Assembly (NCBI RefSeq): GCF_002563635.1
Contig: NZ_PDIZ01000001.1
Location: forward strand, 434,001 to 498,000
Reading direction: 5' to 3'
Length of the DNA stretch: 64,000 bases
From: Bacillus sp. es.036
GTDB lineage: Bacteria > Bacillota > Bacilli > Bacillales > Guptibacillaceae
Shown here in pieces: positions 28,568-45,470 of the stretch (position 1 is its first letter; each line of letters begins with the position of its first letter). The notes below the pieces were generated by a model. It did no database searches, was not told where the DNA came from, and worked only from the letters and a program-made list of their open reading frames with translations. A program made the position numbers and the translations under genes.

Positions 28568-28697
28568 TGTTGTGTTTTTCCACTATGGTGCGGTTTGTGG
28601 ATAAGTTGTACTCATTCCTTGTAATCCGAAGGGGGCGCTTTCCGTTGAGAATCGAAAAACATCACTTTTTACTAGGAAGTTATTGAAGGAGAATCGT

Positions 28698-30086
28698 ATG
28701 GATCGAATAGCACCATCTTTAGAAGTCAAGAAAGCATGCAGCCATAAAGAATATCTGCGATTAGCCATCCCCCTCGTCATATCAGGGATCTCGACTCCGC
28801 TACTTGGGGCGGTGGACACGGCTGTTGTCGGGCGTATGCCTAATCCGATTTCCATTGGGGGAGTCGCAATCGGGGCCGTCATCTTTAATACCATGTACTG
28901 GCTCCTTGGATTTTTGAGAGTTAGCACCAGCGGGTTTACATCGCAGGCAGAAGGGCTTAAGGATCAAAAGGAGATCCTATTAACCTTTTTCAGACCCATG
29001 ATCATCGCCATCCTGTTTGGTTTGCTTTTTCTCTTTTTGCAGGCTCCAATCTTGCACATCTCCTTAATGCTGATAGGAGGAAGTGAAGACGTATCAGATA
29101 TTGCTGCGTCCTACTTTACTATCAGGATCTGGGGTGCACCTTTCATTCTATTAAGTTATGTGATGATCGGTTGGCTCATAGGAATGGGAAAAGTCCGGCT
29201 GGCACTCGCCACCCAAGTGGTGATGAATGTCCTGAATATTCTTTTGGATTTCATCTTTGTGCTTGGACTTGAAATGGGCGTCACAGGGGTGGCTTACGCA
29301 ACTCTGATCTCTGAAGTGACAGCGGTAATGTTTGGGGCCGTAGTGATCTATCGGTCAATCAAGCCAAGCCTTAAGGAAATTCGGTTGAGGATGCTGACCG
29401 AACTTGAACCTCTTCAAAAAATGTTTAAAGTGAACCGAGACTTGTTTCTGCGTACAATCTGCCTCTTGGCGATGACCATCGTATTCACCTCAAAAGGAGC
29501 AAGTATGGGCGAAGTTATCTTAGCCGGCAATGCGATCCTCTTGCAAATTCATTATATGATGGCTTACTTGTTCGGAGGTTTCGCTAATGCGTCCAGCATC
29601 CTAGTCGGAAGGTCGATCGGAAGTAAAAATCGCCTGTTATATACCCGGGCTTTTCACTTATCAGCTCTATGGGGATTGGGATCTGCCGCTTTTCTCTCCC
29701 TCGTTATGGTGTTATGGGGTCAGGAAACCGTTTCACTCTTTACAACGATAGGAGCAGTGCGGGCAGCTGCACAAGACCAGCTCATTTGGATAGTCCTCTT
29801 TCCTATCCTAGGATTTTGGGGACTGCAGCTGGAAGGGATATACTCAGGTGCCACTCAAGCAGCACCAGTACGAGACTCGATCCTTCTGGCCTTGCTCCTG
29901 TTCCTACCAGCCATCTGGCTGACTGTTCCCATCCTAGGAAACTCGGGAATCTGGTTGAGCTTCATTCTTTTCAGTTTCGGTAGGTCATTGTTTTTATCAC
30001 TGTATATTCCAAAGGTAGGAAGGAGAAGCTTCAAGCACGAAGGGACAGGTTCCATGTCTCGGTCGCTGATGTCCATGAAGACCTGA
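28698..30086 (+). CDS. MATE-family efflux transporter
   Basis: A 462-residue, 12-helix transporter of the DinF-like MATE branch (early LVISGISTPLLGAVDTAVVG). MATE proteins extrude organic cations or toxins with sodium or protons. ATG 28698 is chosen for the AAGGAG 6 nt upstream. It begins 130 nt after the metallophore importer and converges on the TOMM operon. It might export metallophore or the modified peptide, but nothing in the sequence decides this. Confidence 0.85.
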   Translation: MDRIAPSLEVKKACSHKEYLRLAIPLVISGISTPLLGAVDTAVVGRMPNPISIGGVAIGAVIFNTMYWLLGFLRVSTSGFTSQAEGLKDQKEILLTFFRPMIIAILFGLLFLFLQAPILHISLMLIGGSEDVSDIAASYFTIRIWGAPFILLSYVMIGWLIGMGKVRLALATQVVMNVLNILLDFIFVLGLEMGVTGVAYATLISEVTAVMFGAVVIYRSIKPSLKEIRLRMLTELEPLQKMFKVNRDLFLRTICLLAMTIVFTSKGASMGEVILAGNAILLQIHYMMAYLFGGFANASSILVGRSIGSKNRLLYTRAFHLSALWGLGSAAFLSLVMVLWGQETVSLFTTIGAVRAAAQDQLIWIVLFPILGFWGLQLEGIYSGATQAAPVRDSILLALLLFLPAIWLTVPILGNSGIWLSFILFSFGRSLFLSLYIPKVGRRSFKHEGTGSMSRSLMSMKT

Positions 30087-30178: not shown

Positions 30179-31741
30179 TTAATGATGCATCCCCCCAACC
30201 AACCAACTCTTAGCCCGATGAAATCCAATAGGAACTTGTATTATCGTCGTTTTCTGTGCATCCTCCAGTTCGTAAATCTCATCACATCCATTGATGTCAA
30301 ACCCAAGCAGAGGATGACCATTCATACCTAGTGCGCTGGCAGTTAACAAGATTCGCTGAAGCAGCATCCCCGCTTCCATGTGTTGGATGCGATATCCTCT
30401 GTAGCCTAGTTCATTTTTGTAATGTTTTCGATCTCCAACGATATGGAGACAAACTGGGACTTGATGCAGATTAACATTGTGAAGAGACATCCCAGCCTGG
30501 AGACTCAAACGAAAATCACCTTCTTTAATCAGGAGAAGAGAATGAGAAGCGGCGTCATAACGATATGTGCCGTTTGGAATGCCTTCAATCTGATAGAAAC
30601 ATCCATAAATCGAGACCCGTGGCTTTTGATTTTCTTCTTGATCTAAATCGTTAGCGTACAAATAAGAATTGGTGCTTTCTTTCAGCAGCGAAGCAAGCTC
30701 AACCTGATCAATTCTTCCTGAGTTGAAATCCATTTCAGGTGAATAGCGACTCTGGCAAGCTTGAGCGAAGTCTTTGGGTAGCTCCATTGCTTCTGGCAAA
30801 GCGATCTTTATTTTACTATCTATTTTTTCTTCTGTCGTTTCTAACTGCCGGAATAGTTCGGTGGATTCAAGTAGCGTCTCCTGATGAATCTTCGTAATTT
30901 CAGGAAAAGGCAACACGGTTTGGGAACGTTGTTGATGCGTCGTTTGGATTTTGGCAATGGTGTTACTTAAGTCTGTAGCTGTGCTTTTACTGAGCGTTTC
31001 ATCATGTGCGATCTTTTGCTCTGAAAGCGGGATAACTGCGTAGGTGCTTTCCTCCTGACCATCTAATCCGAGTAGATGATTAACAGCTTGATCCAGGAAT
31101 TGAAAATGAACGGTTGGTGAATAGGAGAACCGTTTACTAACCTCTAACAACTGCCCCATAAGCGTGCCAGCATCCAACCCTTGAAGGCGATATGAAAAGT
31201 TGTGGTATTTAAAGAAGTTTTTCCAAAACATTGTGGTGATGATGACAGCCCCAAAACAATTGGAAAGGGAAGAGCTGTTTCCTAGTGCACTGGTTAAGTA
31301 GGAATCCAAACGGCCCTTCCTGAGCATGAGAAGGCGATGGTGAGCGACATCGTAATGGTAGATCCCAGTGGGCAGTTCTTCTAGCTTAAGATAAAAATAA
31401 AGCTCACTTGGATATAAGCCGCCACCCGAAGGCGGGAAGCGGCGGAATCCTTGCATCGTTTCAGCTGATTCTTCGTCTGAGGAAGAGGGAAAAGCTGTCT
31501 GGTTAAACTGCGACAGCCCATACACATACCAGAGAAAATGACCGATTTTGTTTAGGTCAGGTGTTGGGCAAGGGGTCTGATCTTGTATTGTAAGTGGAAT
31601 ATCATAAGGAAGTCCATACTCTGGCAAATGACGATAAACTTTATATGGAAGGGGAGCATCGTCCCAATTCACTTCCCAGTTGGGTGGCGTTACAAGGTCA
31701 TTTTGGAAATGAAGCTGGTGTAAAAACAGGTCGAGATCCAT
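30179..31741 (-). CDS. SagB-type (ThcOx) azoline dehydrogenase of the TOMM cluster
   Basis: A 520-residue protein built of two nitroreductase-like halves (PPSGGGLYPSELYFYL and GIYHYD in the first; a second copy from about residue 330 with NGTYRYD). This is the long SagB form of Bacillus heterocycloanthracin clusters. It uses FMN to oxidise thiazolines/oxazolines to thiazoles/oxazoles on the precursor peptide. ATG 31741 is chosen because AAGGAGGT lies 5 nt before it; the frame extends further only by overlapping the YcaO gene. Last gene of the three-gene minus-strand operon. Confidence 0.88.
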   Translation of the reverse strand: MDLDLFLHQLHFQNDLVTPPNWEVNWDDAPLPYKVYRHLPEYGLPYDIPLTIQDQTPCPTPDLNKIGHFLWYVYGLSQFNQTAFPSSSDEESAETMQGFRRFPPSGGGLYPSELYFYLKLEELPTGIYHYDVAHHRLLMLRKGRLDSYLTSALGNSSSLSNCFGAVIITTMFWKNFFKYHNFSYRLQGLDAGTLMGQLLEVSKRFSYSPTVHFQFLDQAVNHLLGLDGQEESTYAVIPLSEQKIAHDETLSKSTATDLSNTIAKIQTTHQQRSQTVLPFPEITKIHQETLLESTELFRQLETTEEKIDSKIKIALPEAMELPKDFAQACQSRYSPEMDFNSGRIDQVELASLLKESTNSYLYANDLDQEENQKPRVSIYGCFYQIEGIPNGTYRYDAASHSLLLIKEGDFRLSLQAGMSLHNVNLHQVPVCLHIVGDRKHYKNELGYRGYRIQHMEAGMLLQRILLTASALGMNGHPLLGFDINGCDEIYELEDAQKTTIIQVPIGFHRAKSWLVGGMHH

Positions 31742-31760
31742 GACGTACCTCCTTGCTACG

Positions 31761-33677
31761 TTAAGGAAATGGATGCGGAAAAGGGTTGAGCTCCTCAACC
31801 GTTAAGTCTCGATCAACAAACCCGAGTTCTTTTGGAACCGCTAATGCTCTGCTTAATCCCGTGACGCGTCTAAGGTGATGGCCAAACGTCATCGGCAGCA
31901 TGCCTGGAATGATTACTTTTGCGCAGTGGAGGCCGTTCCGTTTTATTTCTGGTGTTGTTTGGTCCACTACGATTACGTCTAAGTTTAATTGACGGAACGT
32001 TTGTAACAAGCTATTCAGATCATCGGTTAGATCATCATGATGTTTTGACGGTTGAAACGCTTCCTGGAATGTTTGCAACGGTCGATTCTGATTTAGTAAA
32101 AAGTGAAGACGTTCTTCTGCTTCAGGTAGCCCGTAAAGCATGCCGTGATCATCCATTTTCTTAACAAGCGAAGAGTCATGATACATGGCTAGAAAATCGT
32201 TTTTCTTCTTTTTAAATTCTTTATTTAACGGCGTGATCATGCCCACACTTTCAAAGATCGCGCTTTTCACAGCGCGAACGGGGTCGAGATGGGCACCAGC
32301 TGCACACATTAAATTTAAGCGATCAGTATCAGAGGTGCGGTTTTTCGTAATCGTTAAAATACACGGGATGCCGTGTTCCATCGTGGCATTGTATAAATAA
32401 AGGTCATAACCAGTTATCTCTTGCATGCGGTCGATCATTAAGTGGAGCTCTTGGTCGTTTGATGAGTAAGGATCAATTTGCGGAAGCTGGAGCTGAGCGT
32501 ACCAGGTGATGAGAAAAGAGTCGCGTTCAAGCACTTCCATCATGCCGTAGAAAATGGCTTCTTCAAGACTTCCTCCGATCGCACAGCCGTTTGACGTTTC
32601 AAACACAAACCCATCCCCGCAGCCCATGCTGTAATACGCGAGACGCTCAGGAACGAGAATGGGCTCGTTTTCAATGAGTGAGTAGCCCCACACCCAGTTC
32701 ATTTTTCGATCAGGATGAAAAGGGGTGAACGGATAACCGTGCTCCGCGTACTGTTCTTCTGAATGAACACCGAGATGAAGCGGGTTCAAGGCGCGGTCCA
32801 GGTTACGATAGGAATCGTGAACAACGGTTCTTTTTCCTTTCGGATCAATCCCACACGATCGTTCTAATCCTTCCAAAATCGCAGTCATTTGACTCATTGC
32901 ATACGAATTTGTTCTGCCTGCTGAGCCTTCATTTCCATTGAAGAGAGGGAGGTTTACGATTGCATCAGCATATGTTGTTTCGAAATCGATCATCATACGA
33001 TTTAACAAACCTGTGCGAGGATCGAGATAGTCTCTTGAAAGCACGTTGCGTAAGTCGTTCATCGACCGAGTGCGGTAGCCGCTAACTTTTATACTTGGTT
33101 TTAGCGTCATGACTTCGTCCGTGTCTTCTGGCAGAGAACTGCAAACGGAACAGTAGGCGTCTGGCAAGATTCGATGGCGAGAGCACTCAAGGGAAGCCAA
33201 GTTAAGTAGGTGGATAGCCCCTTCTAATTGAGCTGAGCCCAGCACTTCATTTTTGATCAGCTGAGCCATTTGCAGAAGACCGGTTTGCGAGATCCATTGA
33301 TCCTCAATCGCGTTATCACTTTGGGTTAGTACCTGCTGAATTTTCCATAGATCTTCACGGTCGGTTGCGGCCATCATCTTTCTTGTATCGGCACACTGTG
33401 AACAGCCTGCCATACTAGGGCGAACAAGTGGACCGATCACACCCTCGCCAAAAGATAAGAAAGCGCGTAGCCAATTGATTCCGAGCTCTCGTGCCACTTC
33501 TTCGGCTTGTTTGTGGAGTGATGGATTCCAGCAGTCATGAATGACGAGTAATAGCGATGTCTCCTCAGGTATCGTCCCTGCAAGATCTGGAAGAAGCGTG
33601 AGGTGATGGGGATTGAGTTGTTCCACTACGCAATCTCGCAGCAAGCCATTTCCGACTAAGGTAATGCTAGCGCTCAC
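31761..33677 (-). CDS. TOMM cyclodehydratase: leader-binding/E1-like domain fused to YcaO
   Basis: A 638-residue fusion. The N-terminal 190 residues are an E1/ocin-type region with four zinc-type cysteines (C92, C95, C176, C179). The rest is a YcaO domain with conserved EGLERSCG and EVLERD ATP-site segments. The C-terminus NPFPHPFP matches the PxPxP end that azoline-forming YcaO enzymes need. It activates backbone amides with ATP and cyclises Cys/Ser/Thr. Start overlaps the upstream gene by 4 nt. Confidence 0.92.
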   Translation of the reverse strand: MSASITLVGNGLLRDCVVEQLNPHHLTLLPDLAGTIPEETSLLLVIHDCWNPSLHKQAEEVARELGINWLRAFLSFGEGVIGPLVRPSMAGCSQCADTRKMMAATDREDLWKIQQVLTQSDNAIEDQWISQTGLLQMAQLIKNEVLGSAQLEGAIHLLNLASLECSRHRILPDAYCSVCSSLPEDTDEVMTLKPSIKVSGYRTRSMNDLRNVLSRDYLDPRTGLLNRMMIDFETTYADAIVNLPLFNGNEGSAGRTNSYAMSQMTAILEGLERSCGIDPKGKRTVVHDSYRNLDRALNPLHLGVHSEEQYAEHGYPFTPFHPDRKMNWVWGYSLIENEPILVPERLAYYSMGCGDGFVFETSNGCAIGGSLEEAIFYGMMEVLERDSFLITWYAQLQLPQIDPYSSNDQELHLMIDRMQEITGYDLYLYNATMEHGIPCILTITKNRTSDTDRLNLMCAAGAHLDPVRAVKSAIFESVGMITPLNKEFKKKKNDFLAMYHDSSLVKKMDDHGMLYGLPEAEERLHFLLNQNRPLQTFQEAFQPSKHHDDLTDDLNSLLQTFRQLNLDVIVVDQTTPEIKRNGLHCAKVIIPGMLPMTFGHHLRRVTGLSRALAVPKELGFVDRDLTVEELNPFPHPFP

Positions 33678-35578
33678 GTCGTCTCCCCCTCTCTTAACAG
33701 CACGCCATAGATGTCTATTGCTCCATCTTTTTTAAACGTTTCAAGATTTATTTTTACAATGGAAAGTTCCTTGTTTTGTTGTTCGAAACGGTTTATGACA
33801 GAACGAAGAACGGTCGCCTGATCGTTTGCGTCATAAACAGGGACATCAATGGATTGGATCGGTTTATCTTCAACCGGAATCGCTGAAAAAGAGAGAGCTG
33901 CCGAAATGGTCTTGTTTTGCGCTTCTTTAACGGCTTGGAGAAGCGCACGTCGTAATGGGAGCTCGAGCGTCATCCCGACGCTTCCGTACCAGCGATTATC
34001 CTGAGCTTTCCTCCATACGACCGGTAGTCCGTGCGTATCTTTTCCTAAAGCGAGGTCCGGTACTTTCTGCATCGTCGTTAAAACTTTCAAATAGTAGCGA
34101 CAGGTGTTGTCTTCAACATGTTGAGGTGCAAATCTACAAATGCCTTCCATACACTGATCCGCTTTTTGATTCCATTCCTCTTCTAACGATGTTTGCAGTG
34201 CCCGACTGACAGCCTCAACAAACGTTTCTCCAGCACCTATGTGGAGATCGGTTTCTGAGTACGTAGCCTTTTCGAAAGGAGAGGGGAGTGACGAGATAAT
34301 TTCCTCTTTTAATGGGAGGACGTACTCTTCAATTCCCGTCAACCCGGCATCCCGCCTTGCTTCTTCGTGTGTTAAAGCTGTGCTTATCTGGCTCGGATGT
34401 AGCATAGAGGATCCGGATGGTTTGACGTTAACCGTCTGAATCTCACATTGAGCTAAAGGTAATTGACTCAGCTCGCCTTCTTCCCACTTGTGAAAAATGC
34501 CTAACTCGCTGGTTAGCTGACTGAAATAGTAAAGGAGTTTGTTCGGATCTTTTTTCTTCTGTTCACTAAATTCTTTGGAGACCTTGTCGACTTCGATCTT
34601 TCCTGAGACGAGCGGATGAGGGCGATAGGGATGCCATTTGCCTTCAAGGGTTTCAAGATTAAGTAGAAACGCCTGATTGTTCGAAAGTACAGGGATGCCC
34701 GTGCTCTTTTTAAACCATTCAAATACGACCATATTTGCGAGCATCGCCCCAGCAGGCGGTGAAAAGGAGCCGGTGTTTTGCGGTTCATGTAAACTTCCCC
34801 ACGCAGATTCCCAGCAGCCGCTATCCGGAGTAACAAGAGGGCCGGCCATTCCAACTCCTTTCGTGCAGAAGGCGGGGAGAAACGGCTTTTTCCTTTCTTT
34901 ACAGGCATGAAGGAGACTGCGTAGCTCCTGCACATTTTCTTCGGAAGACACATATAAAATTGCGTCGAATGGTTCGATCTGCCTTTCCCAGGCGATCGGC
35001 CCTCTTTTTACCAAAACTTCAATCGAGACTTCAGGATCAGATTTTCTTGCAGCTGTTTCTAATTGTTTGATTCGTTGTGGGTTCGTCTTTTCATCTGTTA
35101 GTAGCGTCTGGAAACGAGGCAAACCAGATGTAAGTAATGATGAAACCAGCCCAATTAACATCGATCCTTCTCCAACAACGAGAATGCTTTTCTGCCTGTA
35201 TTGCTGAAACCTGTACGCACCGGAATCAGAAAAGCTTTCGATGTATTCAATCTGTGAAGCGAACTTCTCCACCACATGTGATGGTAATTCGTGGGGAAGA
35301 TCGTGACTAACGTCACGAAGAAACCCATTCGTATAGAGGGTATTTGTAATCTCGTAAACTCGATCACGATAAGGCTTTGTAAGCCCCTCTGTGAGGTTTT
35401 CTAGTGAATATTCGCCGTTATACATCGGTATTAGCTTTTCGATCCATTGATGGATGGTGCTCCCTTCCATTCGAAAGGAACCTGCATTGTTTCTGAAATA
35501 GACGCTTCCACTCGGTTCCGGCATGAAAAAAGTGCCTTTCTGTAGCTTTAAACGCATGGAAGGCTGAACATTCGTCAT
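33674..35578 (-). CDS. Thiazole-containing bacteriocin maturation protein (ThiF/ocin-like)
   Basis: A 634-residue protein matching the putative thiazole-containing bacteriocin maturation family seen beside SagB/YcaO in Bacillus. About 130 N-terminal residues look like a peptide-recognition wing; a Rossmann-like ILVVGEGSMLIGLVSSLL (near residue 130) indicates a ThiF/E1 fold without clear adenylation residues. It probably binds the precursor leader and assists the cyclodehydratase. ATG 35578 is chosen for AGGAGG 7 nt upstream; the ATG at 35611 lacks a site. First gene of the operon. Confidence 0.85.
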   Translation of the reverse strand: MTNVQPSMRLKLQKGTFFMPEPSGSVYFRNNAGSFRMEGSTIHQWIEKLIPMYNGEYSLENLTEGLTKPYRDRVYEITNTLYTNGFLRDVSHDLPHELPSHVVEKFASQIEYIESFSDSGAYRFQQYRQKSILVVGEGSMLIGLVSSLLTSGLPRFQTLLTDEKTNPQRIKQLETAARKSDPEVSIEVLVKRGPIAWERQIEPFDAILYVSSEENVQELRSLLHACKERKKPFLPAFCTKGVGMAGPLVTPDSGCWESAWGSLHEPQNTGSFSPPAGAMLANMVVFEWFKKSTGIPVLSNNQAFLLNLETLEGKWHPYRPHPLVSGKIEVDKVSKEFSEQKKKDPNKLLYYFSQLTSELGIFHKWEEGELSQLPLAQCEIQTVNVKPSGSSMLHPSQISTALTHEEARRDAGLTGIEEYVLPLKEEIISSLPSPFEKATYSETDLHIGAGETFVEAVSRALQTSLEEEWNQKADQCMEGICRFAPQHVEDNTCRYYLKVLTTMQKVPDLALGKDTHGLPVVWRKAQDNRWYGSVGMTLELPLRRALLQAVKEAQNKTISAALSFSAIPVEDKPIQSIDVPVYDANDQATVLRSVINRFEQQNKELSIVKINLETFKKDGAIDIYGVLLREGETT

Positions 35579-35614: not shown

Positions 35615-35667
35615 ATGAGTCTATGTTCAGCGCTTTGTCTCATATGTGTGGACAAATAGTAGGAACC
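35615..35667 (-). promoter_or_regulatory. Upstream element of the TOMM operon, shared with the precursor gene
   Basis: On the + strand ATGTTCAGCGC, then TGTGGACAAA and GTAGGAAC occur in the same order as at 44947-44996 upstream of the Cys-rich precursor. It lies 40-90 nt before the operon start and is the candidate promoter/operator. Confidence 0.7.
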
Positions 35668-35777
35668 CTCCCTAGAAAAATACTTGGGTAACATAGGAAA
35701 AGTTTGAAACCATTCTCTAGGAAAAATACGTTTAAGGAATAATTAATGTTTGGAATATTATAGGTGGGAGGGGTAAT

Positions 35778-36073
35778 GTGGTAAATACTAATTTCATCTT
35801 TATTGGCTCGATCTTACTTGTTTTATCGTACTTAGTAGGTGTGGAAAAACAAACGTGGTAAATGGATTTCATCAAAATAGGGTGAGTGACAAAGAAAAAT
35901 CATCCAAGATTATCGGCATTTATAATCTGTTTTCGGGTGTACTATTGGTGATCTTATCATTTATATTTACTGATAGTGGGACAGAGACTTCAATAGGAAT
36001 TGCACTTCCTCTAGTGGCTTTAGGATATCTTATGTTGGCCATCTATGTGAATTTGAACTTAGTTGATAAATAG
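35778..36073 (+). pseudogene. DUF3784-like small membrane protein gene with a frameshift
   Basis: GTG 35778 after GGGAGGGG starts a hydrophobic protein that stops at once after VGVEKQTW (TAA about 35859). The adjoining frame continues NGFHQNRVSDKEKSSKIIG and two membrane helices to 36073. DUF3784-type proteins have the two parts in one chain (one helix, W-L-N/S-G-Y linker, two helices). One missing base near 35856 explains the break. Real mutation or sequence error cannot be told apart. Confidence 0.65.
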
Positions 36074-42518: not shown

Positions 42519-42896
42519 ATGAAAATTATAATTTCCAACAGTTCAAAGACACCGATTTATGAACAGATTCACCTTCAATTAAAAGAACAGATCCTAGCAG
42601 GTGATCTGAAGTCAGGACAGCCACTTCCATCGATGCGTCAATTGGCGAAGGATCTAAATGTTAGTCTCATAACATCTAAACGCGCTTATGAGGAACTTGA
42701 AAAAAATGGGTTCATTTATTCTATCGTTGGAAAAGGGTCATTTGTATCGGAACAAAATAAGGAAATGATTAAGGAAAGAAAAATGCAGGGGATTGAAGAG
42801 CAATTGGTGACTGCCATCAAAAATAGTAAAGACATCGGCGTCACACTAACCGAATTAAAAGAGTTGCTGACTATATTATATAGGGGGGAAGAATGA
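42519..42896 (+). CDS. GntR-family regulator, YtrA subfamily
   Basis: A 125-residue protein: a GntR winged helix (TPIYEQIHLQLKEQILAG, LPSMRQLAKDLNVSLITSKRAYEELEKNGF) and only a short C-terminal helix, the YtrA hallmark. Such repressors control adjacent ABC transporters and often respond to cell-envelope antibiotics. Its stop overlaps the ABC ATPase start by 4 nt. Promoter repeats suggest autoregulation. Confidence 0.92.
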   Translation: MKIIISNSSKTPIYEQIHLQLKEQILAGDLKSGQPLPSMRQLAKDLNVSLITSKRAYEELEKNGFIYSIVGKGSFVSEQNKEMIKERKMQGIEEQLVTAIKNSKDIGVTLTELKELLTILYRGEE

Positions 42897-43771
42897 TGCA
42901 AGATGAAAATGTTATAGAACTCCAGCATGTCTGTAAGTCCTTTGAAGGTTTTAGCTTAAGGGACTTTTCGTTAAAAGTTAAAAAGGGTTATGTGACAGGA
43001 TTTATCGGTGGAAATGGTGTAGGGAAGTCCACCACAATTAAACTGATTATGAATTTGTTACAACCTGATAGTGGATCGGTTTCTGTATTTGGATTAAATT
43101 ACAAAGATCATGAAAAAGAAATTAAGCAGCGAATTGGATTTGTATTTGATGAAAATGTTTTCTATGAACATCTCACACTAGCTGAGATTAAAGCGATTGT
43201 GAGAAATGCATATGTGAATTGGGATGAACAGATATTCAACGAATATGTGAGCATGTTTAACTTACCGCTAACTAAAAAAATGCAAACATTTTCAAAAGGA
43301 ATGATGATTAAAGCGTCTTTAAGTATCGCACTGTCTCATCATGCGGAATTAATTATTATGGATGAACCCACTTCAGGATTAGATCCTATTTTTCGAAGAG
43401 AACTATTAGATCTGTTGCATGAACTTCTGCAAGATGGGGATAAAACAATCTTTTTTTCCACTCATATTACATCTGATCTAGCCTCGATTGCTGATTATAT
43501 AACCTTTATTCATGATGGAAAGCATATTTTCACGAAAGATTTTCAAGAAATTGAGGAGGAATATGCGATTGTAAAAGGGGGGCTGGAATTACTAGATCAG
43601 GAAACAGAACAGGAATTTATAGCTGTACGAAAAATGCCTTATGGATTTGAAGCTTTAACCTCAGATAAACAACGCGCAAGGAGTATATATGGAGAAATGG
43701 CGCATTATGAAGCTCCAACTCTTGAAGATATCATGTATTTCACAAAAAAAGGAGAAAGATCTCTTGTTTAA
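42893..43771 (+). CDS. ABC transporter ATP-binding protein (YtrB-like)
   Basis: A 292-residue ATPase: Walker A GGNGVGKST, a divergent signature FSKGMMIKASL, Walker B LIIMDEPTSGLDP, His-loop STHI. Accessory C-terminal 70 residues are typical of YtrB/EcsA-type exporters. GGGGGGAAG precedes the start. With the next gene it forms an exporter of the lipid-or-peptide-antibiotic type. Confidence 0.88.
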   Translation: MMQDENVIELQHVCKSFEGFSLRDFSLKVKKGYVTGFIGGNGVGKSTTIKLIMNLLQPDSGSVSVFGLNYKDHEKEIKQRIGFVFDENVFYEHLTLAEIKAIVRNAYVNWDEQIFNEYVSMFNLPLTKKMQTFSKGMMIKASLSIALSHHAELIIMDEPTSGLDPIFRRELLDLLHELLQDGDKTIFFSTHITSDLASIADYITFIHDGKHIFTKDFQEIEEEYAIVKGGLELLDQETEQEFIAVRKMPYGFEALTSDKQRARSIYGEMAHYEAPTLEDIMYFTKKGERSLV

Positions 43772-44372
43772 CTTAATACGTAAAGATATCATCTTACTAA
43801 AAAAAACGATGCTCGTATTATTGGCAATTTTATGTGTGTATTTGATCTTAGATTTTTCTATTATCTGGGTAGGAATCCTTTGTAGTATTGTGATATCGAT
43901 GCTTGCCTTTACGCTTGATGAAAAATCCACTATCCAACTATTGCTTAACTCTCTCCCCTATACAAGGAAAGAGATCGTGAGTTCAAAGTATATTGTTGCC
44001 GTTCTCTTTACACTATTGATCGGTGCAGTTACTTATATTGGTAACATAATCATCCATGGAGAAATGACTTCTTGGAAAGAACTATTGTTCATGATTGCTG
44101 TTGTGATGTCGATTCTGTCATTCATATTTCCTTTTTGTTATAAATTTAAAAGCAATTATCTTATGATAGCGGCAATTGGTTTATTTGCATTGTATCTGTT
44201 AACAGTTACTTTTTTTATCCATGATTTAAATGACCGAATGAGAGCGTTTGTTAAGTTGCTTATAACTTCCGACAATACTGTAGAATATCTTGTTATAGGG
44301 GTGTCCGTTTTCCTTTTATACATAGGTTCAGGATTTGTGTCCCTTCGTATTTATAGAAAGAAATTGTTTTAA
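43764..44372 (+). CDS. ABC-2-type permease
   Basis: A 202-residue membrane protein with about six helices and a cytosolic start (FNLIRKDIILLKK) like other ABC-2 permeases. TTG 43764 is 9 nt after GGAG and overlaps the ATPase stop by 8 nt. Smaller than most, and the sole permease in the operon. It faces the TOMM precursor gene across a shared terminator; a role in self-protection or export of the modified peptide is possible but unproven. Confidence 0.8.
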   Translation: MFNLIRKDIILLKKTMLVLLAILCVYLILDFSIIWVGILCSIVISMLAFTLDEKSTIQLLLNSLPYTRKEIVSSKYIVAVLFTLLIGAVTYIGNIIIHGEMTSWKELLFMIAVVMSILSFIFPFCYKFKSNYLMIAAIGLFALYLLTVTFFIHDLNDRMRAFVKLLITSDNTVEYLVIGVSVFLLYIGSGFVSLRIYRKKLF

Positions 44373-44430
44373 TTGACTTATAAAAAATTTCACTTAAGAT
44401 ATGTGTTCGTTTTAAATGGATTCATCATTT

Positions 44431-44470
44431 AAAGAACCTGGAAGTGCTTAGCGCTTCCAGGTTCTTTTTC
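44431..44470. terminator. Bidirectional terminator between permease and TOMM precursor
   Basis: A 14-bp stem AAAGAACCTGGAAG/CTTCCAGGTTCTTT with a 9-nt loop; T-runs on both strands. Confidence 0.88.
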
Positions 44471-44536
44471 GTTGATTTATGTGATTTAGCATTAAGTGTA
44501 CTTGGAATAGTTAGTCGATTTCACGATTGATCCGGT

Positions 44537-44842
44537 TCAGCGACCACCGCATCTGCCACATCCACCACATCTTGCGGCACATCCACCACAACCTGCGCAT
44601 CGCGCACAGCGAGCACATCCACCACAGCCAGCACAACCGCCGCAACCCGCACAGCCGGCACAGCCAACGCAACCCGCACAGCGGAAACACCCAAAGCATA
44701 CAAACCCAATTATACGAGTATCATTTGGATCTACATTCTGATCCCCATTTGGATAATAGTTCGCTTGCTCGCAAGGAACTAACTCCTGGGCATGGTACTC
44801 TCCAACATCTAAGTGCTGAAGATCGTTTTGAAATTGATTCAT
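44537..44842 (-). CDS. Heterocycloanthracin/sonorensin-type TOMM precursor peptide
   Basis: A 101-residue peptide. The leader (residues 1 to about 46; MNQFQNDLQHLDVGEYHAQE) has the MNQFQ-LQ-L start known for this Bacillus family. The core has Cys at every third residue from 49 to 88 (14 in a row), then 92, 95 and 98, separated by Gly, Ala, Arg, Val or Phe. Cys residues in this family are cyclised to thiazoles by SagB/YcaO enzymes such as those encoded at 30-35.6 kb. ATG 44842 is chosen for GGAGGTGA 5 nt upstream. The repetitive GC-rich core is open in several other frames, which are shadows. No maturation gene is adjacent; family members are often unlinked to their enzymes. Confidence 0.92.
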   Translation of the reverse strand: MNQFQNDLQHLDVGEYHAQELVPCEQANYYPNGDQNVDPNDTRIIGFVCFGCFRCAGCVGCAGCAGCGGCAGCGGCARCARCAGCGGCAARCGGCGRCGGR

Positions 44843-44946
44843 TTCTGTCACCTCCATCAAACGTTCTTCATGGACTGAAATCCATTTTCCTAAGCGCTTA
44901 TCTTATGAAACACTTTCTTCAACACACTATGTAGATGGGCTGGGTG

Positions 44947-44996
44947 ATGTTCCTAATGAAAGCGCGGAAAGTATGTGGACAAAGTGGTAGGAACAG
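44947..44996 (-). promoter_or_regulatory. Upstream element of the TOMM precursor, shared with the TOMM operon
   Basis: On the + strand ATGTTCCTAATGAAAGCGC, TATGTGGACAAAG and GTAGGAACAGGG. The same blocks, in the same order, precede the enzyme operon at 35615-35667. GTTCCTA (44949) and TAGGAAC (44988) also form an inverted repeat. Confidence 0.7.
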
Positions 44997-45065
44997 GGAT
45001 GTTTCCGTTGAAAAGAGGCGAAGGGCTCTGTGTTGCGTTATGGGAGGATAAAGTTTAAGGGCGTT

Positions 45066-45092
45066 AAAAAAAGCTACCCTTAACGAGTAGCT
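45066..45092 (-). terminator. Terminator of the second VOC gene
   Basis: AGCTAC/GTAGCT stem and a T7 run on the minus strand. Confidence 0.8.
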
Positions 45093-45101
45093 AAAGAAAT
45101 G

Positions 45102-45470
45102 TTAGTTATGTACCTGCAGTTTGTTTCCGTTAGGGTCATAAAAGTGAAAGAATTGGTGTCCCTCATCCTCCTGGATCGGCTCTACTTTCACATCTTGATC
45201 AACTAAATAGTTATAGAGTCGATTAATGTTTGAAGTAGTCAGACCAACAGAAAATTCTGGTTCACCATTTTTGAAGAAGTGGCCTCTCGAGTTCTCGTCT
45301 GCTTCTACTAAAACGAAGAGGGGACCTTCTTCAAGCGATAAGACCGCCAAATCACCTCGATTAAATTTTAAGGTGAACTGTAAACACTCTGAGTACCAGG
45401 AAACGGACTCACTGAGATTGACGACTGGTATTCGAATATAGTGAATACCATTAAAAAGTGAATGGCTCAT
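45102..45470 (-). CDS. VOC-family protein
   Basis: A 122-residue single VOC unit pair: GIHYIRIPVVNLSESVSWYSECLQF, then SVGLTTSNINRLYNYL and FFHFYDPNGNKLQVHN at the end. The start at 45470 has AGGAGG 6 nt upstream; the long upstream extension of the frame has no site. Function unassigned (glyoxalase/bleomycin-resistance superfamily). Confidence 0.85.
   Translation of the reverse strand: MSHSLFNGIHYIRIPVVNLSESVSWYSECLQFTLKFNRGDLAVLSLEEGPLFVLVEADENSRGHFFKNGEPEFSVGLTTSNINRLYNYLVDQDVKVEPIQEDEGHQFFHFYDPNGNKLQVHN

Follow-up and report, generated by a model that had tools for sequence, protein, structure and literature searches.

When and where does a bacterium make a cysteine-repeat peptide whose gene stands kilobases away from the enzymes expected to modify it? 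The question is raised by a gene on the minus strand of a 64,000-nucleotide stretch of Bacillus sp. es.036 (contig NZ_PDIZ01000001.1, positions 434,001 to 498,000; hereafter the window). This gene, at 44537..44842 (ATG at 44842, last codon at 44540, TGA at 44537-44539), encodes a precursor of the heterocycloanthracin family of 101 amino acids plus stop. A preliminary description of the locus named no strand, and the same stretch read on the forward strand is not the precursor gene. It also overlooked the promoter-like sequences upstream, which we judge to be the most informative feature of the locus and which resemble promoters of the mother cell during sporulation. It is quite likely that the precursor is converted into a polythiazole by the F, CD and B proteins encoded at a distance and, on the strength of these sequences, that it is made in the mother cell late in sporulation and left on or around the spore. 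Taken by itself, mother-cell expression of the precursor is very probable; a spore-associated fate of the product has somewhat less than an even chance.

Upstream of the precursor the minus strand carries GAACA-N16-CATAGTGT (44924..44952), with the −35 element at 44948-44952 and the −10 element at 44924-44931. The accessible text of PMC517825 describes sigma-K promoters as having a 5-nt −35 element, in which position 4 is C, and a 10-nt −10 element, with 14-16 nt in the gap, and sigma-E promoters as differing from them by T at −35 position 4. The window sequence agrees with the sigma-K form in the C at position 4, the gap and the CATA-type −10. The consensus letters used for counting, mACm for the −35 and CATA for the −10, are those that we take to be standard. 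When the upstream regions of 10 copies from the genus were aligned, a block of TAACA or GAACA, 16 nt and CATANNNT stood out by its conservation from the sequence on either side, and in several other genera a weight matrix placed it at the corresponding position.

For the promoter counts we used 105 loci: the window, L003, L058-L080, and the best 80 of 336 loci with the F protein of the enzyme operon. These are not 105 genomes, as L106-L110 and L114 repeat genomes of L067-L080; L114 is from Bacillus methanolicus, one of the carriers. A script found the precursor in 92 of the 105 loci; the 13 without it include L106-L109, split genus genomes whose retrieved flank does not reach as far as the precursor, which enters the count through L076, L075, L080 and L078. 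The set of 250-bp precursor upstreams comprised 92 distinct sequences, one antisense ORF (open reading frame) of L079 and two duplicates having been dropped (94 to 92); P0021 was excluded from A1. The strict pattern mACm-N15..17-CATANNNT was present in 60 of the 92 upstreams and on the reverse strand of one, while 20 dinucleotide-shuffle sets gave 1.2 on average and 4 at most. Spacing was nearly invariant: 58 of the matches had 16 nt and one each 15 and 17, with none at 14 or 18-20. The same boxes occurred 6-10 times each at spacers 7, 10, 11 and 13, which we read as other AC steps within the same conserved block. Upstream of other ORFs of at least 150 amino acids in the same loci, the N16 pattern was seen in 2/702 cases and the N15-17 pattern in 5/702. 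Among named genera, 17/22 have a strict copy and 20/22 a strict or near one. As a control we took dpaA, a sigma-K gene in B. subtilis, from the 30 best of 61 genomes (30 upstreams; 29 for spoIIIAA); the sigma-K pattern was found in all 30 (28 at N16, 2 at N15), including the window's own genome (L213). A later set from another search contained 18 loci and gave 16 upstreams after L251 and L260 were dropped as repeats (L262, L266 and L267 added nothing new). The strict pattern was present in 14 of these 16, of which 3 repeat earlier loci.

A scan of 44370-45110 gave no sigma-A-type site on the precursor strand, and a sigma-A promoter for the precursor was set aside. A terminator-like hairpin with a T run at 45072..45092 (minus strand; 1 found, 0.7 expected in shuffles) separates the upstream VOC gene from the precursor promoter, and a similar one is present in several genus copies; the precursor is thus likely its own transcription unit. 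Between the −35 and −10 boxes, Bacillaceae upstreams have RCCCA (44940-44944 in the window), and those of Paenibacillus have AGAGCGGA. The complement of RCCCA, TGGGY, presumably resembles a GerE box, and a second regulator may act between the two boxes.

The enzyme operon is preceded by a pattern of another type, ACATA-N17-CATAGACT (35618..35647, minus strand), which resembles a sigma-E promoter. The likely F start is the ATG at 35578, preceded by AGGAGG; since stops interrupt the frame upstream of it in L072, L073 and L079, the region with the pattern is non-coding. F was found in 101 of the 105 loci, leaving 95 distinct upstreams after duplicates were removed. In 74 of them mATA-N17-CATANNNT was present, against a background of 2/702 in other genes. 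At most 4 matches were seen at spacers 13-16 and 18-20, whereas N6 gave 21 and N24 and N25 gave 8 each. If ATG is allowed, as in Paenibacillus, the count rises to 85/95, and RRACAA lies between the boxes in 74 of those 85. In the window this element is AGACAA at 35635-35640, and we take AGACAA or RRACAA to resemble a SpoIIID site. SpoIIID is described as binding over the sigma-E promoter of spoIIIAA in the part of PMC517825 consulted. The spoIIIAA control matched the sigma-E pattern in just 10 of 29 upstreams (at N15-16) and the sigma-K pattern at N15-17 in none, so that the sigma-E assignment is the weaker of the two. Upstream of F the enzyme strand has three sigma-A-type sites, including an overlapping pair at 35757-35785 (10/12 matches), and on both strands near F the scan gave 5 sites vs. 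3.1 expected; a sigma-A promoter may thus also serve the enzyme operon. In G008 and G013, where precursor and F are neighbours, each retains its own promoter block, so that the two appear to have been separate units already before their separation on the chromosome.

The genome of the precursor holds the complete enzyme set of the family (F, fused cyclodehydratase and dehydrogenase); CD, F and B are described in PMC4603692 as the only genes common to all clusters. The F protein (33674..35578, minus strand) is ocin-ThiF-like (TIGR03693, 583 bits), and its residues 17-89, at the N-terminus, match PbtF (8t19). According to the accessible part of PMC7470986, heterocycloanthracin and thiopeptide clusters have an RRE (RiPP recognition element; RiPP, ribosomally synthesized and post-translationally modified peptide) fused to the TIGR03693 protein, and the homologous N-terminal domain of TclI binds the leader (PMC10634744, in part). 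The adjoining gene (31761..33677, minus strand) encodes a fused CD cyclodehydratase of the YcaO type (TIGR03882 + TIGR03604) with the C-terminus NPFPHPFP; its residues 309-637 align with LynD 474-775, NPFPHPF of CD standing for NPTPMPF of LynD. The SagB-type dehydrogenase (B; 30179..31798, minus strand) matches TIGR03605 in two stretches, and its true start is probably downstream of 31798; its best match was a putative nitroreductase, and the match to McbC was weak.

The peptide itself is as first described: it starts with MNQFQ and has Cys at every third position, with 14 Cys-X-X units in a row (Cys49, 52 ... 88) followed by three more Cys (92, 95 and 98). In total there are 18 Cys, one of them in the leader (Cys24). 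We place the Cys-rich core at residues 49-101 (44540..44698, minus strand). The run of 14 is the longest in the window; in 30 window shuffles (two-base chunks) the longest was 3 in 29 and 4 in one. Residues 1-98 match TIGR03601 (heterocycloanthracin/sonorensin) in an NCBIfam hmmscan with an E-value of 1.2e-7 and 32.3 bits, below the cut-off of 35. A Pfam search (E 0.01) gave no match for the precursor, and a six-frame genome search with TIGR03601 (E 0.001) reported none in the window's genome (G000) or its 14 control genomes. Among 5.8 billion proteins searched, 24 homologues were found at E ≤ 0.001; 15 of them carry a name, which for 12 is heterocycloanthracin/sonorensin, the closest named being from Halobacillus trueperi, and the alignment shows that the leader is homologous to known members. 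The family link that had been proposed for the peptide is supported by the TIGR03601 match, the homologues and the F, CD and B enzymes, although the score of the match lies under the cut-off of the model; we regard membership as almost certain.

As a precursor, then, it is an ordinary new member of a known family. Its Ala/Gly/Arg core had been considered possibly new; it proved to be ordinary variation, since across genera the Cys spacing stays regular while the residues between vary widely (Ala/Gly/Arg, Phe/Asn, His/Asn, Ser). The Cys period itself also varies in the family: behind the same type of leader, L121 (Brevibacillus), L141 (Paenactinomyces), L122 and L174 have cores in which a Cys recurs every two (CSCS) or four (CFGQ, CFHN) residues. 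In L120 and L157 one enzyme set is adjoined by two tandem precursors with different cores. The closest homologue, P0001, has a near-identical leader and a core that loses the Cys-X-X frame after a few units, in a frame-shift-like manner.

The enzymes lie on the precursor's strand 9 kb away, as had been noted: the F start at 35578 sits 9.0 kb from the precursor stop. The label 'orphan' did not hold, for in the genus 10 of 14 genomes (the window's included) carry F, the same 10 carry the precursor and the other four have neither. In all 10 the precursor is upstream of F on the same strand, with a gap of about 250 bp in G008 and G013 and 5-10 kb in the other eight. In seven of these eight wide-gap genomes, including the window's, the genes that flank precursor and enzymes and those that lie between them follow largely the same order; in the eighth, G005, mostly other genes are found there. 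Outside the genus, 14 genomes with both genes by profile have them within 0.5 kb, and the script added a 15th pair, G057. Separation itself is already known for the family: it has been reported as the norm in the B. cereus group, amounting to 1.27 Mb in B. anthracis (PMC2674419), and is also noted in the portion of PMC4603692 available. Carriage is high in the family of G035, with 18 of 19 genomes, though only 10 of 14 in the genus; judged from their precursors, these 19 look like Gottfriedia/Ectobacillus kin and not the B. cereus group.

We also surveyed the neighbours of F at L111-L185, that is, 75 of the 80 loci taken as the best of 336. The survey covered ORFs of at least 90 amino acids within about 5 kb, for which most precursors are too short, and F recurred in 75 loci, CD in 74, B in 73, precursor ORFs in 14 and an ABC ATPase in 13. 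Within these limits no transporter or other ORF family besides precursor, F, CD and B recurred in more than 13 of the 75. Convergent with the precursor, window positions 42519-44372 hold genes for a GntR regulator, an ABC ATPase and an ABC-2 permease. This set was considered as an exporter or immunity system and rejected: it is present in the window, G009, G004 and G001, but missing in G011, G006 and G007, and is not recurrent in the 75 loci. A hairpin between the convergent precursor and permease genes (44431..44467; −24.5 kcal/mol, z −7.7), unlisted in the terminator scan, is likely a shared terminator. At 28683-30086 a MATE efflux gene is convergent with the dehydrogenase; it is also found at the G005 cluster (94% identical), where the other flanks differ. 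Seven of the eight genomes searched, the window's own included, have the VOC gene that in the window stands between enzymes and precursor. In six genomes, the 18-kb stretches around it contained none of the other window genes tested, save weak ABC matches (27-28% identity) in four, and a search for an empty site with the HIT gene gave no linked site.

Put together, the two promoter types would allow the following course. At an early stage in the mother cell, sigma-E would activate the enzyme operon, whose expression SpoIIID may next lower, and sigma-K would later turn on the precursor, so that the enzymes come first and the substrate after. The RRE at the N-terminus of F would bind the precursor leader, thiazolines would arise from Cys side chains by the ATP-dependent action of the YcaO cyclodehydratase, and the SagB dehydrogenase would oxidize these to thiazoles, all rings being formed in the mother cell. 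With no recurrent exporter, the product would remain there up to its deposition on the spore or its release at lysis. Its variable residues between Cys, regular spacing and high carriage in one family are more in keeping with a material, or with a product of general use, than with a toxin aimed at a narrow target, although this is not proof. The genome of the window carries spoIVA, dpaA and spoIIIAA. Since dpaA and spoIIIAA are present in 61/61 relatives, they do not discriminate carriers; phylum-wide, F exceeded the cut-off in only 3 of 398 genomes, all three with spoIVA, a sample too small to judge by. The genera of the 80 named loci are, we believe, all endospore formers save one labelled Pseudomonas. 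The locus L124, titled Pseudomonas sp. ISL-84, has a Bacillaceae-type locus and promoter and is probably a mislabelled assembly.

Several points weigh against sporulation-timed production in the mother cell. The strict sigma-K pattern is lacking in 32 of the 92 precursor upstreams, most of which retain the C and the spacing and deviate at just one or two bases of the −35; requiring just the −35 C followed by A or C gives 84/92 with 3 on the reverse strand, but a looser score (at least 14 of 16) gives 83/92 forward and also 16/92 reverse. The pattern was first noticed in the genus and then counted, and related sequences are non-independent. The B. cereus and B. licheniformis groups lie outside the promoter samples, and L249 of the later set, whose leader we take to resemble that of the B. 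cereus group, has no strict pattern. With 17 nt, the F spacer exceeds that of the spoIIIAA control by one or two. The neighbour survey could have passed over export and immunity genes that are small or lie farther off, and sonorensin, a family member, is an antibacterial peptide according to the portion of PMC4544038 consulted.

The family name implies another reading, an ordinary thiazole bacteriocin secreted in stationary phase to kill competitors. The ABC transporter set beside the precursor in four genomes would fit it, as would a family member that goes up in B. cereus biofilm, although the latter does so alongside sporulation genes (PMC6962202, in the part seen) and is also compatible with production during sporulation. 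We consider a secreted bacteriocin unlikely, given that the promoter patterns are of the mother-cell type, that the scan of 44370-45110 found no sigma-A-type site on the precursor strand, and that the ABC set is missing in G011, G006 and G007 and no transporter recurs in more than 13 of the 75 loci. It is less probable still that the conserved block upstream has some other regulatory function, or acts as an RNA element, and is not a sigma-K promoter. In Bacillaceae the stretch between the boxes is conserved too (RCCCA after TAACAAT), beyond the need of a bare promoter; yet in Paenibacillus that stretch differs while −35, spacing and −10 are unchanged, and dpaA has the same arrangement.

The remaining alternatives concern the peptide. 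The low-complexity Cys-rich core with its variable residues would also suit an unmodified coat-like protein acting by metal binding or disulphides, but the leader, the joint occurrence of the precursor and F, CD and B within the genus, and its place next to F in 15 genomes outside it speak against such a protein, and we regard it as improbable. A decaying, functionless repeat ORF, to which low-complexity coding sequence and the frame-shifted look of the P0001 core could point, is hardly credible. The reading frame and the Shine-Dalgarno sequence GGAGGTGA (44848..44855, minus strand) are kept in 10/10 genus copies. Over 43 leader codons, seven genus copies compared pairwise show 3-10 synonymous and 0-5 non-synonymous differences, and for the whole gene G000 and G001 differ by 29 synonymous and 3 non-synonymous codons; the gene is therefore under purifying selection.

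With the heterocycloanthracin/sonorensin system (TIGR03601; PMC2674419) the locus shares the leader, the Cys-X-X core, F with fused CD and B, and a precursor apart from its enzymes; it differs in the sub-cut-off score, in having no Arg-Arg at the leader/core boundary and in the smaller split. Sporulation-type promoters are unmentioned in the heterocycloanthracin/sonorensin literature examined. Thiopeptides such as micrococcin (PMC10634744, partial text) have in common with it an ocin-ThiF-like F with RRE, a YcaO cyclodehydratase, a dehydrogenase and the conversion of Cys to thiazole that is predicted for the present peptide, whereas here the core is long and repetitive. Six thiazoles correspond to 120 Da in PMC10634744, or about 20 Da lost for each Cys converted, and the core here offers up to 17 such Cys. 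A thiopeptide was rejected, as no dehydratase or cycloaddition family recurs in the 75 loci and none was recognized among the 10 neighbouring window proteins scanned. A RiPP tied to sporulation also recalls the sporulation killing factor (SKF) of B. subtilis and further RiPPs linked to sporulation in that species. SKF, a sactipeptide under Spo0A control, has an exporter of its own, in contrast to the mother-cell sigma-factor signals and lack of a recurrent exporter seen here.

The family was proposed in 2009 from sequence (PMC2674419). What appears to be new is that precursor and enzymes have a conserved promoter signal of the mother-cell type. In the open-access literature surveyed we saw no link of the family to sporulation, though an earlier report may exist. 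Tentatively, heterocycloanthracins might be an endospore RiPP class, governed by a sigma-E to sigma-K relay and coating the spore with polythiazole in a structural or antimicrobial role, and not ordinary secreted bacteriocins; we would give this somewhat less than an even chance. Conserved as it is from Bacillaceae to Paenibacillaceae, such a signal would tell when and where the peptide is made. Sporulation timing would explain why an exporter is dispensable, and separate transcription units, kept even as neighbours, would explain how the precursor can come to lie at a distance from its enzymes. Compounds of this kind could go unnoticed when only supernatants of vegetative cultures are screened.
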